This document shows positions 3,944 to 26,047 of a stretch of 34,270 nucleotides of DNA, one piece after another. Position 1 is the stretch's first letter. Each line of letters opens with the position of its first letter. The position numbers and the translations under genes are program-made. Below the pieces are notes generated by a model, which searched no databases, was not told the DNA's origin, and saw only the letters and a list, made by a program, of their open reading frames with translations. The DNA is from Elusimicrobiota bacterium (GTDB lineage: Bacteria; Elusimicrobiota; Elusimicrobia; O2-12-FULL-59-9), in the NCBI GenBank assembly GCA_016206405.1, contig JACQRQ010000102.1, positions 1 through 34,270 on the forward strand. The letters are read 5' to 3'.

Positions 3944-4966
3944 TTAGACTAAGCGCCGGCGGTTGTTGCGCTCGATCATTTCGTAAGGGTACAACGAAGG
4001 CGGGCGGCTGAGGTCGTCGAGGACGGCCAGTTCTTCCGCGGTCAACTGGATTTTTTCGGAACTCAAGTTTTCCTGGAGCTGCTCGGGACTGCGGACGCCG
4101 AGGATCACGGAGGTCACCGGCGTTTTAGCTTGCAGCCATGCCAGCGCGATTTGAGAGGGGGTTGCCCGGCGGGCTTGGGCTATTTTATCCAGAGCCGCCA
4201 CGACGGCATGCCCTTGTTCGCGCTCATATCTCAAAAATTCCTCGTCAGCCCGGCTGAGGCGGCAGGCGGCGGGGCGGGGCCGGCCCGGCCTGTACTTGCC
4301 GGAAAAATATCCTTTGGCCAAGGGGCCCCAAACGATATAGCCAAGCCCCTCCTCCCGGCACACCGGCAGAAGCTCGTTTTCGACTTCCCGGCAAGCCAGA
4401 TTGTATTTGGCCTGCAGACAAGCGAAGCGTTCCAGGCGCAGGCGCTCCGAGACTCCCAGAGACTTGGCGATTTGCCAGCCGGAAAAATTGGAGCAGCCGA
4501 CATAGCGCGCCTTGCCCCAGCGCACCAGGTCATCAAACGCCTTCAAGGTCTCTTCGATGGGCGTGGCTTGGTCCCAAATATGAGCGTAATAAATGTCAAT
4601 CCAGTCCGTTCCCAGACGCTTGAGGCTGAGGTCGGCCGCCGACAAGATATGGTGCCTGGACAACCCCGTTTCGTTGGGACCCGCGCCGTCCGGGGCGTTG
4701 AAAACCTTCGTGCACACGAGAACCTGCGCCCGTTTTCCGCGCAGAGCGCGTCCCAGCAGGCGCTCCGACTCCCCATAGCTGTACATGTCGGCGGTGTCGA
4801 AACAGTTGATTCCGGAATCCATCGCCAAGTGGACCAGCTGCGAAGCCGCCTTTTGACCCACGCAGGCGACCCCGGGCCACAGCCTGGACGGCCCGAAAGT
4901 CATGCAGCCCAAAGAGAACTCCGACACCTTGATCCCCGTCCTTCCCAATGTCCGCATTCGCATCAA
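3944..4966 (-). CDS. Aldo/keto reductase family protein
   Basis: MRTLGRTGIKVSEFSLGCMTFG, FDTADMYSYGESERLLGRAL, YVGCSNFSGWQI motifs. Confidence 0.9.
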   Translation of the reverse strand: MMRMRTLGRTGIKVSEFSLGCMTFGPSRLWPGVACVGQKAASQLVHLAMDSGINCFDTADMYSYGESERLLGRALRGKRAQVLVCTKVFNAPDGAGPNETGLSRHHILSAADLSLKRLGTDWIDIYYAHIWDQATPIEETLKAFDDLVRWGKARYVGCSNFSGWQIAKSLGVSERLRLERFACLQAKYNLACREVENELLPVCREEGLGYIVWGPLAKGYFSGKYRPGRPRPAACRLSRADEEFLRYEREQGHAVVAALDKIAQARRATPSQIALAWLQAKTPVTSVILGVRSPEQLQENLSSEKIQLTAEELAVLDDLSRPPSLYPYEMIERNNRRRLV

Positions 4967-5008
4967 TATCCTCCTTCGCCGCGACCCAGGGCCTCAATCT
5001 CATTTTAG

Positions 5009-5014
5009 TATAAT
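5009..5014 (+). promoter_or_regulatory. Putative -10 box TATAAT for uvrB
   Basis: TATAAT 11 nt upstream of the uvrB ATG; no clear -35. Confidence 0.4.
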
Positions 5015-5025
5015 TTGCGGCAGCC

Positions 5026-7044
5026 ATGGCCTCGCGTTTCACGTTCAGCTCAAGTTTCAAACCGGCCGGCGACCAGCCCCAGGCCATCCGGGAGCTGGCG
5101 GAGGGCGTCCGCTCCGGCGCCCGGCACCAAGTTCTCTTGGGAGTCACCGGCTCGGGAAAAACATATACGGTCGCCAAAGTGATCGAGGCCGTCAACCTGC
5201 CCACCTTGGTGCTTTCTCCCAACAAAGTTCTGGCGGCCCAGCTTTACGCCGAGTTTAAATCCTTTTTTCCCGGCAACGCGGTGGAATATTTCGTCTCCTA
5301 CTACGACTACTACCAGCCCGAAGCCTACGTTCCTCAAACGGACACGTATATCGAAAAGGACGCCGCCATCAACGAGCACATCGACCAATTGCGCCTGAAG
5401 GCGACCAGCACCCTGTTGTCCCGGCGCGACGTCATCGTCGTAGCCTCCGTGTCGTGCATTTACAATATCGGCTCTCCTGAAAACTACAGAAACATGTGCG
5501 TTTTCTTGGAAGAAAACCGGCCCAAAAATCGCGCGGAGCTTTTGGACGGCCTGGTCAAGATTCAATATGAGAGAAACCAAGTCGAGTTCAAGCGCGGGGT
5601 TTTCCGCGTCCGCGGAAACGTGGTGGACGTTTTTCCCGCCTACAGCGACACCGCCTTGAGAATCGAGCTCGACGGCAACACGATCCGTTCCCTGGCGGAG
5701 ATCCACCCCGTCACCAGCCAGAAACTCAAGCGCCTGCGGCAATTCTGCATTTACCCCGCCAAACACTTCATCACTTCGCAGCCGCGCCTCGAGGCGGCTC
5801 TCGCGGCCGTCGAAAATGAGCTGGAGGAGCGGCTTGCCTGGCTGAAATCCGCCGGGAAAAATCTGGAAGCGGAACGCCTCCGGCAGAAGACGCGCTACGA
5901 CCTGGAAATGCTCAAGGAGCTTGGATTTTGCCACGGCGTCGAAAACTATTCCAGGCATCTGTCCGGCAAAAAGCCGGGGGAGCGCCCCGACTGCCTTCTC
6001 GACTACTTTCCCAAGGACTTTTTGATGCTCATCGACGAATCCCACATCGCCGTGCCGCAGATCGGGGGCATGTACGAGGGCGACCGCTCCCGCAAGCAAA
6101 CCTTGGTTGATTTCGGCTTTCGCCTCCCCTCGGCCCTGGACAACCGCCCGCTGAAATTCCAGGAGTTTGAAAGCCTCGCCCCGCAGGTCATCTACATTTC
6201 GGCCACGCCCGGACCCTACGAGCTCAAGAAGTCCAAGGGCGTCATCGTGGACCAGGTGATTCGCCCCACCGGCTTGGTCGATCCCCCGGTGATCGTCCGG
6301 CCGGCCGAGGGGCAAATTCAGGATCTCATCGGGCGCATCGAGACCCGGGTGCGGGGCAAGGAGCGCGTTCTGGTCAACACGCTGACCAAGCGCACGGCCG
6401 AGGACCTCTCCGCCTTCTTGTCCGCGAAGGGAATCCGCGTCCAGTACCTTCACTCCGATATCGACGCCCTGAGGAGGGTGCAGATTCTCAAGGAATTAAG
6501 GCAGGGAAATTTCGACGTTTTGGTCGGCATCAACCTGCTGCGAGAAGGCTTGGACTTGCCCGAGGTGTCCTTGGTGGCGATTTTAGACGCGGATAACGAG
6601 GGTTTCTTGAGGAGCGCGACCACCTTGATCCAAATCGCCGGGCGCGCCGCCCGCAATCTTAACGGCGAGGTCATTTTTTACGCCGACCGGCAAACGGCGG
6701 CGATGCGGCAGGCGATGGGTGAAATGGATCGCCGGCGAAGCAAACAGAGCCTGCACAACAAAAAATACCGGATCACGCCGCGCACCATTCAAAAGGCGGT
6801 GCACGAACTGGAGGAATTCGAGTACGAGGCAAAAAAGGAAACCCTATCCCTGCTGAAAAATCCAAAACTCGGGTCCATCGATAAAGCGAACCTTCCAGCC
6901 GTCGCCGCCGAGATCGAGAAGCAAATGAAAGAGGCTGCTGAGAATTTAGATTTCGAGCTGGCCGCGATGCTTCGGGATCAGTTATTTGAAATCAAAGAGA
7001 TGCGGGTGAAGCAGGGAAGCAGGGATCGAGCGATCAAGGAGTAG
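5026..7044 (+). CDS. uvrB: Excinuclease ABC subunit UvrB
   Basis: FKPAGDQPQAIRELAEG, LGVTGSGKTYTVAKVI, YVSYYDYYQPEAYVPQTDTYIEKD-type and C-terminal UVR motifs. Confidence 0.98.
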   Translation: MASRFTFSSSFKPAGDQPQAIRELAEGVRSGARHQVLLGVTGSGKTYTVAKVIEAVNLPTLVLSPNKVLAAQLYAEFKSFFPGNAVEYFVSYYDYYQPEAYVPQTDTYIEKDAAINEHIDQLRLKATSTLLSRRDVIVVASVSCIYNIGSPENYRNMCVFLEENRPKNRAELLDGLVKIQYERNQVEFKRGVFRVRGNVVDVFPAYSDTALRIELDGNTIRSLAEIHPVTSQKLKRLRQFCIYPAKHFITSQPRLEAALAAVENELEERLAWLKSAGKNLEAERLRQKTRYDLEMLKELGFCHGVENYSRHLSGKKPGERPDCLLDYFPKDFLMLIDESHIAVPQIGGMYEGDRSRKQTLVDFGFRLPSALDNRPLKFQEFESLAPQVIYISATPGPYELKKSKGVIVDQVIRPTGLVDPPVIVRPAEGQIQDLIGRIETRVRGKERVLVNTLTKRTAEDLSAFLSAKGIRVQYLHSDIDALRRVQILKELRQGNFDVLVGINLLREGLDLPEVSLVAILDADNEGFLRSATTLIQIAGRAARNLNGEVIFYADRQTAAMRQAMGEMDRRRSKQSLHNKKYRITPRTIQKAVHELEEFEYEAKKETLSLLKNPKLGSIDKANLPAVAAEIEKQMKEAAENLDFELAAMLRDQLFEIKEMRVKQGSRDRAIKE

Positions 7045-8811: not shown

Positions 8812-9124
8812 ATTTAACCCGAAAACCTCAGTTGCGGCGTCTTTCTCTTCTGAAAGTGCCGTACAAAATTATGCAACTGAGGTTGCACCCTACGCAGAGC
8901 TTCGGGTACTAGCCGGGAGGCCAGTGGCCTCCAGCGTGCTTGCGCCTGCGGCGCCGGAGCGGGTGCCTCTGACACGCCAAGTGCGCCGAGCTCTGCGAGG
9001 CGCCGGATAACCCCGTCGCTGTTTTACAGCGACAGCCGGAGCATGCACCACTGGCGCGCCCGGTGCCGCGAGCACTGCGAACGGCCCTGCGGGCGAATTC
9101 CCAACTGGGGAATTCGGGTTAAAT
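8812..9124. repeat. Structured dispersed repeat, copy A
   Basis: Perfect 12-bp terminal inverted repeat ATTTAACCCGAA (8812-8823)/TTCGGGTTAAAT (9113-9124); 10-bp inner stem CCTCAGTTGC (8826-8835)/GCAACTGAGG (8873-8882); blocks shared with 23585-23743. Confidence 0.75.
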
Positions 9125-21675: not shown

Positions 21676-23630
21676 CGCGCAGCCTCGCCCGTACTGCCGC
21701 TCAACATATCCCGCGTTCTGCGGAGATTATTGGAGGCCGCCTCAAACGCCGGCTCGCGCCGGGCGGCTTCCTCAAGGGGCGCCAGCGCTTGGCCGGGCCG
21801 CCCCAAGAGCATGGCCGTGGTGCCCAAGTAGAAAGGCAGACGGATCAAAGGGGCGCGTTCTTGCTGCAGCCGCGACAGCTCCTCCAGGGCCTGCGCTAGA
21901 TTGCCTTGGTCGATGACGGCCATAATCCCGCGCAAACGCTCATAAGCCAAGCGAAATCCCGGGGGTTCGCGCAAAGCGAATATTCTTTGGGCCTCCTCAG
22001 AGTCCGAAAACATCAATTGAAAACGGCCGCTATTTTGCGCCTGCTCCTGCAGCCGCTCGATGTCCCGTCGCCGCTCCTCGCGCCGGACCGAAGCCACGTT
22101 GATCGGCTGGTGATAATCGTCGAACCACAGATACCCAACCCCTTGCGCCAAGAGCCCGAAGTACCAGGCGTCCGGGTCGTCGAAAGAGCTGTAGCGCAAA
22201 GCCTTGCGCCCGCTGTAAAGATAAATGAAGTCCTTATAAGCGCCCATAAAAATCGCATCGCCGGGCGTTTGCTCGCGAACCCAGGCCAGAGTCCTTTCAG
22301 GCGGCGCATTCTCGTTTAAACGCCGGCGGCGCGCCGCCCGGACGACGCCCGCGTCCGCGATTAAAAACCAGCCGAACAGAGCGGCGGCGGCTCCGGCAAG
22401 GAGATATTTCGACCGCGGCATTCGACCCGCGATGGAGCGGGCTCCTTGCAGGCAGAAAACAAACAAGAAAGGAAGAATGGGAACCACGTAGCGCACATCC
22501 CGGTTGACCCAAAAAAGATGCAGGCATAAGTACAGCGCGACATATAAGCGCAGAAGCTTTCCCACCGGGTCTTTCCAGCCCTGCCGCTCCAAAAAACCAA
22601 CAAAAACGGGGACGGCCGCAAGCGTCGTCAGGAGAAGGACGCGGAAATCCGCCGGCGGCTCCCCCGGCCAGCCCCAGAAACCTTCGACAAAAAGGAGGGA
22701 AGGATAGTGGCTTAGTTGATCCCAGAATAAACGCCCTACCGTAGAGACCGCGCCGAGCCCCTCCCCCGAAACAGGAGGAAGTTCCAAGAAATATCCCGCC
22801 GGATTATTCGCCGTCCACCAATTGCGCAGGAAAGGCAAAAGCCACAGGGGAAAAGCTCCGGCCGCGAACGCCGCCGCCCGCCGCACGCGGCCTGCGGCGG
22901 CCCCCTCCGCAGCCCCAGGCACAGTGCCCTGGGACCCAGAAGCCCCAGTGGGGCGTGGGGAGCTGCGGGGACCCGGTGGCGTCGGAGACGCGCCGGCCTG
23001 CCCCTGCGCCGGGACGAACAACAAATACGCGCTCACCGCCGCTATCCACACGGCGCCTTGGGGGCGAATCCAAGCCGAAAAGGCGCAAAGCAGCCCGAGC
23101 GTAAACGCCGGCCGCATTTTTTCAGGGCGCGATTCGGGCGACCAACTTTGAAACTTTTTCAAAATGAGGAGGCTGAAAAGCAGAAAGGCGGGCTCAGACA
23201 TAACCGACCCGGATTGTTCGGCGGTCGAAGGATGAAACGCCCATAAGCCCGTCAATAGCGTCCTCTGCCCGGCGCTGAAAAATTCGCCGAATAGATTCCA
23301 TAACAGCAGCAGGCTGGCCAGCAGAAAAAGGAGCGAAGCGGCCTTGGCGGCCTGCATGGAGCCCGCCGCCGCCGCCGGCAGCAGAAGCAGCGGATAGCCG
23401 GGAAGCTGATGGGTCAAGGGGATTTCGCGGGGATGAGCCAAATCCACGTAGGCGCCGGAGCAAAGGCTTCGCGCAGCCAGCCAATGTCTGGCGTCATCGT
23501 TGAAGCGGCCCACGTAATAGTGATCGAGCGATAAAAAGTAAAGCAAGCCGGCGGCGCAGAAAAGAATCGGCAGGGGGGAGTGGCGGCTGGCCCGAAAAAC
23601 GCAGTTGCGGCTTTTCTCTTGTCCAAACAT
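21672..23630 (-). CDS. GT39/ArnT-like membrane glycosyltransferase with C-terminal helical repeats, containing an in-frame insertion
   Basis: DHYYVGRFNDDARHWLAARSL (GT39/83-like first loop), many TM segments, C-terminal TPR-like region; internal ATG at 23630 chosen (the ORF is open to 23786). Confidence 0.75.
   Translation of the reverse strand: MFGQEKSRNCVFRASRHSPLPILFCAAGLLYFLSLDHYYVGRFNDDARHWLAARSLCSGAYVDLAHPREIPLTHQLPGYPLLLLPAAAAGSMQAAKAASLLFLLASLLLLWNLFGEFFSAGQRTLLTGLWAFHPSTAEQSGSVMSEPAFLLFSLLILKKFQSWSPESRPEKMRPAFTLGLLCAFSAWIRPQGAVWIAAVSAYLLFVPAQGQAGASPTPPGPRSSPRPTGASGSQGTVPGAAEGAAAGRVRRAAAFAAGAFPLWLLPFLRNWWTANNPAGYFLELPPVSGEGLGAVSTVGRLFWDQLSHYPSLLFVEGFWGWPGEPPADFRVLLLTTLAAVPVFVGFLERQGWKDPVGKLLRLYVALYLCLHLFWVNRDVRYVVPILPFLFVFCLQGARSIAGRMPRSKYLLAGAAAALFGWFLIADAGVVRAARRRRLNENAPPERTLAWVREQTPGDAIFMGAYKDFIYLYSGRKALRYSSFDDPDAWYFGLLAQGVGYLWFDDYHQPINVASVRREERRRDIERLQEQAQNSGRFQLMFSDSEEAQRIFALREPPGFRLAYERLRGIMAVIDQGNLAQALEELSRLQQERAPLIRLPFYLGTTAMLLGRPGQALAPLEEAARREPAFEAASNNLRRTRDMLSGSTGEAAR
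22890..23020. repeat. In-frame repeat-like insertion in the GT39-like gene (boundaries approximate)
   Basis: Pro/Gly/Ala/Ser-rich segment GQAGASPTPPGPRSSPRPTGASGSQGTVPGAAEGAAAG; blocks at 22894-22913 and 22965-22981 identical to the nadC insert; hairpins CCCAGGCACAGTGCCCTGGG (22914-22933) and GCCCC-AGT-GGGGC (22942-22954). Confidence 0.65.
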
Positions 23631-23743
23631 CACAAATAATATTATGCAACCGCGTTTGCGCCTGCGGTGCCGGACAACCCCGTCTCGGCTGCGCCAAGAC
23701 GGCCCTGCGGGCGAATTCCCCAACTGGGGAATTCGGGCTAGCC
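23585..23743. repeat. Structured dispersed repeat, copy B (short form)
   Basis: Terminal inverted repeat GGCTGGCCCGAA/TTCGGGCTAGCC (1 mismatch); inner arms ACGCAGTTGC (23599-23608)/GCAACCGCGT (23646-23655); near-identical right end GGCCCTGCGGGCGAATTCCC(C)AACTGGGGAATTCGGG shared with copy A. Confidence 0.75.
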
Positions 23744-23807: not shown

Positions 23808-24242
23808 TTGAGAAAATTCGTCTTTTGGATTTTTGTCGCCTTGGCAACGGCATTTATGGTCGTTCCGTCTTTAACCGTCATTGACCACCTTGAAAAATAC
23901 CGTCAGGCGATCAAATTTTTCAAGGCCCAAGGATCGGTTATTGAGGGCCGCCGCTCCGGCGTGGCCGTCAAGCAGCCGTCGCAGGCGCATTTCGTCACCT
24001 TTTCTCTCAAGGCGCCGGAAGCGCGGAGCGTGGAGCTGGCCGGGGACTTCAATTTGTGGCAGCCGCAAAAATTCCTCCTAAAGGGCGGCAAGGCCAAGGG
24101 ACAGTGGGAGCTGACCGTGCCCCTCGCCGCCGGCCAATATCTGTACCTCTTTAAAGTGGACGGGCAATGGAAGCTGGACCCCGCCAACGCGCGGACCCGC
24201 CGTTATGGCGACACGGTTTCATCGGTTCTTTCGGTTCCATGA
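23808..24242 (+). CDS. Membrane-anchored CBM48/AMPK-beta-like carbohydrate-binding domain protein
   Basis: N-terminal TM; FSLKAPEARSVELAGDFNLWQPQKFLLKGGKAKGQWELTVPLAAGQYLYLFKVDGQWKLDPAN; TTG start. Confidence 0.85.
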   Translation: MRKFVFWIFVALATAFMVVPSLTVIDHLEKYRQAIKFFKAQGSVIEGRRSGVAVKQPSQAHFVTFSLKAPEARSVELAGDFNLWQPQKFLLKGGKAKGQWELTVPLAAGQYLYLFKVDGQWKLDPANARTRRYGDTVSSVLSVP

Positions 24243-26047
24243 GATTGATCCAGATCAAAAGCGCTTGGCTGTTGACGGCGTGCCTGTTGGCCGCGGCGTC
24301 CGCGCCGGCCGGCGCGGGGCTGTGGCCTCAAGCGTCGGTGGAAGACGAAAAGGCCGAGAGCCTGTGCCTCCTCTGGATTCCGCGCGAAGACCCTTTCGAC
24401 GCCGCCCCTCTCGCCAAGCTCCTCAAGGAAAATTCGGACTTGAGGCTGAGCGTCGCTTTGTCGGCGGAAGCGGCGGCGGAGCTCTCCACCTCGACGCTCC
24501 CGCCGGGCCGACTCGAGATCGCCATGCGCTTGAAAGGGGACCCGGTGCTGCCCATGATCTCCAATTTGCGCTCCCCGGAAATCGCTTACGGGGGAACCGC
24601 GGCGGCGACGGAGTTTTCCAGGCCGCAGGACATCATGCTGCGGCTGGCGCTGGCCCAAGACGCCTACACGAAGCTCGGGTTAAATCCCTCGGGTTTTGTC
24701 CCGGCGGCCGGCGCCCTCAGCCGCGAAACGCTCCGGCTTTTTCACCGCCTTCAAATCCGCTGGCTGGCGATCGGAGGGGCATCCTCGGAGCCGTTTCGCT
24801 CCCAAGGACTCAACCTGATCCCATTTCAAAGCTACCCGCCCGATGAAAGCCGGCCCGCGGCGGTTCAGGCCTACGTTTTCGATGAAGCCTCGGATTTGGC
24901 GCCACCGGGTTTCATGCTCGATTTTATCAGGGACCGGATAAAGTCCGGACGCGAAATACGCTGGCTCACCCTTTCGCAGCGGATCGCGGGCGAGCAATTC
25001 GCCGAACAGGCCGGGGAGTTCTCTTTGATCCCTTGGACCCGCGACTACGGAACATGGATCGGCGGCGAACGCAAGAACGGCGCCTGGGAGCTTTTGGCCA
25101 AAGCGGCCGAGGATCTGGAGGAATATCAAAACTCAGGACGGGCCACGATTAAAATCCTCGATCAAGCGGCGCAAAAGCTTTATCAAGCGGAAAGCGGCCG
25201 ATACTTCGCCGACGCCGGGAAACCGGAGAAACAAGCGACTGAAAAAGAATTCAGGCAAATCCTCGCGGACATATACGGGCTTCTGCAGAAAAGAATCCCC
25301 GCGGGCCTGGAGGACGCTTCCGAAAACGGCGAGGCGAACGCGCCCGGTCCAAGCGAAGGGGGAACGCCGGCGCCGTTTGTCGAAAGCGGAGAGACCTGGC
25401 TCAGATTCAACGATCCGGCGGGAGAGGCCTTCCGCCCCAAGGCGGCCGAAGTCTCCGTCTCAACGCAGGAGATTTCCGCCCATGCGGCCGCCGCGCCCAA
25501 CCTCTGGGATATAAAAACCTTCGAGGTTTCCTGGGATACCCGAGCCATCCATATGGCGTTCACCATGGAAACGACGTCGCCTTCGGCCCACGCCCCTTTT
25601 GGCTTTGACGATTTGCTTTTGGATGTTTATATCGATTTAAACAATCGGGCTGATTCCGGAATCGCCTCGTTGCTGCCTGGACGGCGCTTTCTTATGCTTT
25701 CCAAAGACGCGTGGGAATACGCCGTCACGATCAGCGGTTGGGGAGCGGAGGTCTTCCGCGCCGGCTTTCAAGGCGAAGCCATCCCGCTGCTGGCGCTTTC
25801 CCCGAAGTGGGACATGGCAAAGAACAGAATCAGCGTTTCCATACCCCGTTCCTTGATCCGCGGAGCTCCGCGGGGTTGGGGCTACCTGGCCGCCAGCATG
25901 GCCCTCAATTCCACCGCGACCGATCTTATTTATTTTGAGCCCTTGGATTCGGAGACGGGGCTTCCCCTTCTGGACGTTTTGTCGCCGGCCGGCCTTCCCA
26001 ATCCCATCAAAAGCTATCAGCGCCTGCCCGCGATCCGGGTGGATTAG
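24239..26047 (+). CDS. Exported GH57-like protein with C-terminal glucodextranase-C-like domain
   Basis: Signal peptide MRLIQIKSAWLLTACLLAAASAPAGA; C-terminus YIDLNNRADSGIASLLPGRRF...WEYAVTISGWGAEVF resembles glucodextranase C-terminal/DOMON-like modules; ATGA overlap with CBM48-like gene. Confidence 0.65.
   Translation: MRLIQIKSAWLLTACLLAAASAPAGAGLWPQASVEDEKAESLCLLWIPREDPFDAAPLAKLLKENSDLRLSVALSAEAAAELSTSTLPPGRLEIAMRLKGDPVLPMISNLRSPEIAYGGTAAATEFSRPQDIMLRLALAQDAYTKLGLNPSGFVPAAGALSRETLRLFHRLQIRWLAIGGASSEPFRSQGLNLIPFQSYPPDESRPAAVQAYVFDEASDLAPPGFMLDFIRDRIKSGREIRWLTLSQRIAGEQFAEQAGEFSLIPWTRDYGTWIGGERKNGAWELLAKAAEDLEEYQNSGRATIKILDQAAQKLYQAESGRYFADAGKPEKQATEKEFRQILADIYGLLQKRIPAGLEDASENGEANAPGPSEGGTPAPFVESGETWLRFNDPAGEAFRPKAAEVSVSTQEISAHAAAAPNLWDIKTFEVSWDTRAIHMAFTMETTSPSAHAPFGFDDLLLDVYIDLNNRADSGIASLLPGRRFLMLSKDAWEYAVTISGWGAEVFRAGFQGEAIPLLALSPKWDMAKNRISVSIPRSLIRGAPRGWGYLAASMALNSTATDLIYFEPLDSETGLPLLDVLSPAGLPNPIKSYQRLPAIRVD

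Follow-up and report, generated by a model that had tools for sequence, protein, structure and literature searches.

A gene-less repeat of about 150 nt in Elusimicrobia with a covarying internal guide, probably mobilised as single-stranded DNA

Detailed knowledge of single-strand transposition directed by a guide is limited to IS608, ISDra2 and, in part, REP systems. Elements of the IS200/IS605 type (IS608, ISDra2) have hairpin ends, carry a right tetranucleotide of their own and are inserted without duplication 3' of a tetranucleotide that is retained on the left. For IS608, the pairs A+16:T-3 and A+17:T-4 and the insertion 3' of the tetranucleotide kept on the left have been described (PMC5934647). 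PATEs of Haloquadratum and Halanaerobium are short and transposase-free, with near-terminal palindromes, no duplication and strain-specific insertions (PMC3119063, PMC7290912), and their ends match an IS605-type transposon of the same genome. SMRs of Haloquadratum end in inverted repeats that resemble no known transposon, cause no target duplication, are of non-coding length and have an enigmatic mobilisation (PMC3119063). REP, BIME and REPIN repeats are intergenic and of high copy number, consist of inverted hairpins with a tetranucleotide and are served in trans by a Y1-type enzyme, the RAYT (PMC8266576, PMC6006769).

The window analysed here, i.e. the whole stretch of 34,270 nt, belongs to a contig of genome G000 (2.29 Mb, 299 contigs, 81% complete). 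The first-pass annotation had reported two copies of a structured repeat, copy A at 8812-9124 and copy B at 23585-23743, and both were found at these positions with the shared blocks that it listed when the sequence was re-read. The 5' motif of the element occurs in the window only in copies A and B (shuffle mean, 0.09), and the element contains no ORF and no transposase, as had been claimed. Its limits were corrected. The ends were set from about 40 copies as CCCGAA...TTCGGG, followed by YTAG on the right, and the proper start is CCCGAA at 8818 and 23591, not 8812 and 23585; ATTTAA and GGCTGG, which had been taken for arms of the element, are both target DNA. The body is most often exactly 146 nt long. 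The features of the two copies are listed below.

8814..8817, + strand, left target tetranucleotide TTAA of copy A (target DNA, outside the element; assigned by the empty-site rule given below)
8818..9122, + strand, complete element, copy A (301-nt body plus right tetranucleotide TTAA at 9119-9122; covariance-model match, E 4.8e-32)
8824..8884, + strand, hairpin H1 of copy A (arms 8824-8835 / 8873-8884)
8887..8998 (approximate), + strand, extra structured modules of copy A between H1 and the guide (109-nt insertion in the model alignment)
9004..9012, + strand, guide CGG-A-T-A-A-CC of copy A (T replaces the usual C and matches the right end TTAA)
9025..9073 (approximate), + strand, second extra module of copy A, at H3 (49-nt insertion in the model alignment)
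9095..9115, + strand, terminal hairpin H5 of copy A, GAATTCCC-AACT-GGGGAATTC
23587..23590, + strand, left target tetranucleotide CTGG of copy B (assigned by the empty-site rule)
23591..23741, + strand, complete element, copy B (147-nt body plus right tetranucleotide CTAG at 23738-23741; covariance-model match, E 5.4e-40)
23597..23657, + strand, hairpin H1 of copy B
23671..23679, + strand, guide CGG-A-C-A-A-CC of copy B (pairs with 5' CCG and 3' GG..TAG)
23713..23734, + strand, terminal hairpin H5 of copy B, GAATTCCCC-AACT-GGGGAATTC

Copy A is longer than copy B by its extra hairpin modules, which are found in other copies too, those at 8887..8998 being present in L054 (the ortholog of copy B in the congeneric genome G001), L057, L023 and L084. 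The inner arms change in step between the two copies, as had been noticed at first: those of copy A form a perfect 12-bp inverted repeat, and those of copy B, AAACGCAGTTGC / GCAACCGCGTTT, pair with one wobble. In the covariance-model search both copies were full-length matches, and further copies were found genome-wide and in relatives. No family of Rfam was matched.

The structural alignment comprised 33 copies. The fold supported by it consists of the hairpins H1 (12 bp), H2, H3, H4 and H5 together with two long-range helices. The first helix is formed by 5' CCR with an internal YGG, its variable pair being G-C in 25 copies and A-U in 8 with no exception; in the second, the internal C-A-R-CC is paired with the 3' end GGYT-G, one A being bulged. 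Over the 44 pairs in total, 96.8% of the cells are paired and two-sided changes occur at 19, an extent of covariation reached by 0 of 500 shuffles; structures slid along the same alignment as a control gave 18-43% pairing and just 1-6 two-sided covarying pairs. For the guide helices alone, 97.3% of the cells are paired with 12 compensatory cells, and again 0 of 500 shuffles reached the observed value. Maintenance of base pairing, as originally proposed from two copies, therefore lies far above both the shuffled and the slid controls.

The outer terminal stem from which part of that proposal was drawn did not hold as a conserved structure. It shows 0 compensatory changes on the 33 copies and is broken in the family of G002, where the CCCGAA/TTCGGG core, thought to be fixed, reads CCCAAA/TTCAGG. 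Pairing of the outer arms is not a family trait either, since the flanks beyond the tetranucleotides pair at chance (12, 14, 7 and 13 of 35 vs 33-40% expected), and in copies A and B it is attributed to near-palindromic YTAR targets and luck. The terminal inverted repeats are imperfect (CCCGAAn5CAGTTG at both ends), and the stem that they could form is without covariation. Instead of an outer stem, the 5' CCR pairs with the internal YGG and the 3' GGYT-G with the adjacent internal bases. In two copies of G002 (L055, L058) a GCCTGCCTGC..GCAGGCAGGC hairpin is inserted in the H1 loop.

The guide, YGG-A-C-A-R-CC, lies between H2 and H3, just 5' of H3, and is complementary to the joined ends GGYTAG/YCCR with one A bulged. 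Permutation tests stratified by family were performed on 37 copies, and 4 of the 32 guide-by-tetranucleotide comparisons gave p<0.05, these being exactly the predicted partners: R112 vs right N1 (p 0.0002), C110 vs right N4 (p 0.005), C110 vs left N4 (p 0.012) and R112 vs left N1 (p 0.022). R112 is G in five copies, every one with CTAG. C110 is changed to T in copy A (G000) and in L063 (G002, a different family), both with the right end TTAA and at TYAA targets. Left and right tetranucleotides are alike beyond what the guide accounts for (N1, p 0.0002; N4, p 0.007), the first base of both being T in 22 of 37 copies, and this might come about if the inserted loop slips and mismatches are then repaired. 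Pairing of the guide with both ends of the element is shown by these sequence comparisons, that with the left site or the target is supported more weakly, and the arrangement looks like one central guide for both ends. With IS608 the element shares the register (A:T-3 and A/R:T/Y-4) and a guide just 5' of a hairpin (PMC5934647); IS608, however, has separate guides GL and GR, whereas the present element showed a single covarying guide, which is centrally placed. A single shared guide for Y1 is not documented in the literature on Y1 systems consulted for comparison. A 214-nt sub-family of genome G011 (L174, L181) echoes the guide rule: in its GGGGCC[G/A]CCCC, internal G goes with the right end CTAG and A with TTAG. 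A second sub-family in G000 (L015 and L017, on contigs C27 and C140, respectively) has the left end CCTGAATTCTGC, another body and the same right hairpin, and its candidate guide, AGGTTGCCC or AGGTAACCC, is also complementary to the 5'-end CCT.

For the detection of empty sites, the joined flanks of 26 copies (with the element removed and the right tetranucleotide left out) were searched in G000 and G001. At 13 loci of these two genomes the other genome has an ortholog that runs without interruption through ~145-170 nt of joined flank, and two of the 13 empty sites fall in the window.

4890..5050, + strand, empty site with target ATAT, junction 4969/4970 (orthologous to G001 copy L082)
24173..24327, + strand, empty site with target TCCA, junction 24252/24253 (orthologous to the second copy in G001 L054)

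The former is flanked by an aldo/keto reductase gene on one side and by uvrB on the other. The left and right tetranucleotides differ in 9 of the 13 loci, 8 of which are clean, and 8 of 8 clean empty sites hold the left tetranucleotide (TCCA, TTGG, CCAG, ATAT, TCAA, CTAT, RTAG and CCKT), the right one being new at these sites (YTAG, once TCAG). Since the left tetranucleotide was present before and the right one is new, the inserted unit is the body plus the right tetranucleotide, without duplication; the absence of a target duplication suspected in the first-pass annotation is thus borne out by all 8 informative sites. One copy (L084) was inserted precisely at the terminal CTAG of a truncated copy older than itself. 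The single empty site obtained from distant genera was too diverged in sequence to read.

These sites bear directly on a rival account, by which the repeat would be a MITE mobilised by a DDE transposon (IS5-like or piggyBac-like) and its unequal tetranucleotides would descend, through later mutation, from a duplicated 4-bp YTAR target. The target rule of IS5 is YTAR, the ends of the element are imperfect inverted repeats (CCCGAAnnnnnCAGTTG), and the shared first T, the correlation between left and right tetranucleotides and their mostly identical form in distant families of the class would all suit such a MITE. We nevertheless regard it as improbable, because the tetranucleotide present at the 8 empty sites is the left one, in most cases not a YTAG, and the right YTAG arrived with the element, because a decaying duplication would not spare the left copy every time, and because a DDE mechanism leaves the covariation between internal guide bases and the right end unexplained. 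An exact target-site duplication was not found in this genus.

Precise insertion against empty sites in the sister species makes this a transposable element and not a resident RNA gene. The initial reading, an RNA or ssDNA-structure element rather than an ordinary MITE, was accordingly kept for its single-stranded logic and for setting the repeat apart from ordinary DDE-type MITEs, and given up as regards a resident RNA. Insertions are mostly intergenic and unbiased in orientation (sense 3, antisense 7, convergent 6 and divergent 5 where both neighbours were called), and the occurrence of every orientation relative to genes argues against a transcribed RNA function. That the repeat is a cis-acting regulatory or terminator RNA, passively duplicated, has the lowest probability of the explanations weighed, despite its strong hairpins (z = -6.5 for the fold of copy A) and its mostly intergenic location, for its ends are fixed, no T-tract follows H5 in copies A and B, and the clean presence/absence polymorphism refutes such an RNA as a full account; secondary roles of this kind are possible. 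Only slightly more credible, and still very unlikely, is a small RNA element that spreads through retrotransposition or reverse splicing and whose guide would play the part of an intron's exon-binding sequence. Pairing of the guide with the 5' flank and precise duplication-free insertion would also fit group I/II introns, and the compensatory changes are equally good as RNA, but self-splicing introns as known are larger than 150 nt, insertions occur in all gene settings alike, and no Rfam intron or ribozyme model was matched, by which an Rfam family or a self-splicing intron was rejected. An integron attC site was likewise rejected: attC sites have R'/R'' boxes RYYYAAC...GTTRRRY with cassette ORFs adjacent, whereas the right end GGGYTAG misfits GTTRRRY in most copies and the copies are single and dispersed, with no arrays.

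The element is real, non-autonomous and recently mobile, being polymorphic between species. We consider it probable that it is a mobile element of ~150 nt which moves as ssDNA by peel-and-paste (HUH/Y1-type) and is catalysed in trans, the insertion rule and the lack of duplication being the hallmark of peel-and-paste movement of a single strand, of the IS200/IS605-, REP- and PATE-like kind. The substrate recognised would be the top strand in its folded form (H1-H2-guide-H3-H4-H5), in which the guide pairs with the 5' end (CCR:YGG) and the 3' end (GGYT-G:C-A-R-CC, one A bulged), and the tetranucleotide half of the guide may also pair with the target. On the right the strand would be cut 3' of YTAG, and on the left 3' of the target tetranucleotide. 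The ends would then be joined, presumably by Y1 chemistry, into an ssDNA circle with the junction GGGYTAG/CCCG, and re-insertion would take place 3' of a YTAG-like target, after which the element would have the target tetranucleotide to its left and would end in its own YTAG at the right. Against the Y1 reading stand the lack of an enzyme tied to the element, the different repeats beside the RAYT-like Y1 genes, two carriers with no PF01797 match, the absence of TnpB over the cut-off, the single guide in place of two, the likeness of left and right tetranucleotides in excess of the guide's effect, and a target looser than that of IS608. A GC-skew test, weak on contigs as short as these, gave no strand bias signal.

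By this comparison the element appears to work like a single-strand element of the IS200/IS605 type, and it resembles PATEs, SMRs and REPINs. Insertion without duplication, a right tetranucleotide borne by the element and pairing of the guide with the right site (left, p 0.012 and 0.022) agree with IS200/IS605; unlike these, it has neither tnpA nor tnpB, five tandem hairpins, inverted-repeat-like ends and a looser, YTAG-like target, and neither separate left and right guides nor a Y1-encoding copy with matching ends was found (~30 loci). PATEs differ in lacking terminal inverted repeats and in having a partner transposon in the same genome; no such transposon was found for the element. SMRs are archaeal, and the part of their description consulted mentions no guide or covarying fold (PMC3119063). 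REPs are 20-50 nt long with GTAG 5' of the hairpin, compared with 150-350 nt and a multi-hairpin fold here (PMC8266576, PMC6006769). Because neither a two-guide layout nor a transposase that matches was found, the element was not filed under IS200/IS605, PATE, SMR or REPIN.

In the search for the enzyme, PF01797 (Y1) was detected in 16 of 18 carriers and in 139 of 235 class genomes, an association that is weak and phylogenetically confounded, and it had no match in the carriers G002 (82% complete) and G183 (90% complete). None of the ~30 Y1/RAYT loci examined in a non-exhaustive survey had the ends of the element. These Y1 genes are of the RAYT-like type, and such repeats as were seen beside them are their own and differ from the element (GGGGTCAGGCTTTAC, AAAAGGTA..TACCTTTT and GGGGACAGCGACCTA); for example, the genes L073 (G000:C8:600-1478) and L074 (G001:C5) are flanked by inverted repeats with GTCAGGCTTTAC or GTCAGGCTTGACATT, unrelated to the element. 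An element-like repeat of G138 (L185), situated at ~0.9 kb from a Y1 gene, was rejected as a link, because another gene intervenes and the Y1 gene has its own repeats. No TnpB was found over the cut-off in the four genomes searched, by which a TnpB/OMEGA partner was rejected. A longer, autonomous copy was rejected as well, since every locus that was read from one paired end to the other measures ~100-350 nt. We infer that an enzyme acting in trans moves the element.

That enzyme could be a RAYT (TnpA_REP) moving a REPIN/BIME-like element, a special case of the Y1 reading which we hold as possible but tentative. The RAYT-like Y1_Tnp genes of the 16 carriers and the inverted end hairpins, as in REPINs, speak for it, as does a 28-nt hairpin-only form of REP-like size, CCCGAATTCCCCAACTGAGGAATTCGGG + TTAG, situated immediately 3' of a stop codon (L014, G000:C41). 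On the other side, the RAYTs are flanked by their own repeats and not by the element, and co-occurrence says little when Y1 is present in 139 of 235 class genomes anyway and two carriers are without it. More doubtful still is a separate class of single-strand element, in which one internal guide would serve successively for the left and right ends and for the target and the enzyme would lie outside the known IS200/IS605 and RAYT groups. If one guide did serve all sites, target choice would be encoded in the element itself, which suggests a minimal gene-less substrate of 150 nt. The natural variation across a bacterial class, in which the guide, the right cut site and the target co-vary, acts as mutagenesis, and the element may offer a handle on the spread of PATEs, SMRs, REPINs and other repeats that lack a transposase.

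The family numbers ~20 matches in G000 and more in G001. Copy B had 19 matches in G000, fragments included, and copy A had 47, because its extra modules recur elsewhere. Among the 41 genomes searched, matches were obtained in G001 (same genus, 24), G002 (another family, 15) and G011 (3), and none in most others. No earlier description was found in a search of the literature on Elusimicrobia repeats, an absence that is no proof of novelty, and phages and plasmids searched gave zero matches. The covariance model matched 11 of 235 class genomes, five of them belonging to another large family, in which the inner sequence is quite different and the ends are the same; the exact end pattern was present in 16 of 235 (reversed control, zero), and the two together gave 18 carriers among the 235 Elusimicrobia genomes. 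A viral-contig match and one inspected non-Elusimicrobia contig (L105, L078) were rejected as chance pattern matches, and the remaining non-Elusimicrobia pattern matches were left out of the carrier count. According to the pattern scan, the carriers are Elusimicrobia MAGs from groundwater and the subsurface, e.g. RIFCSPLOWO2_12_FULL_59_9. Relatives of ~130-170 nt in G136 (contigs C7, C19, C40, C49 and C67), in which both ends are inverted copies, have near-identical end sequences, which suggests a recent burst in that genome.
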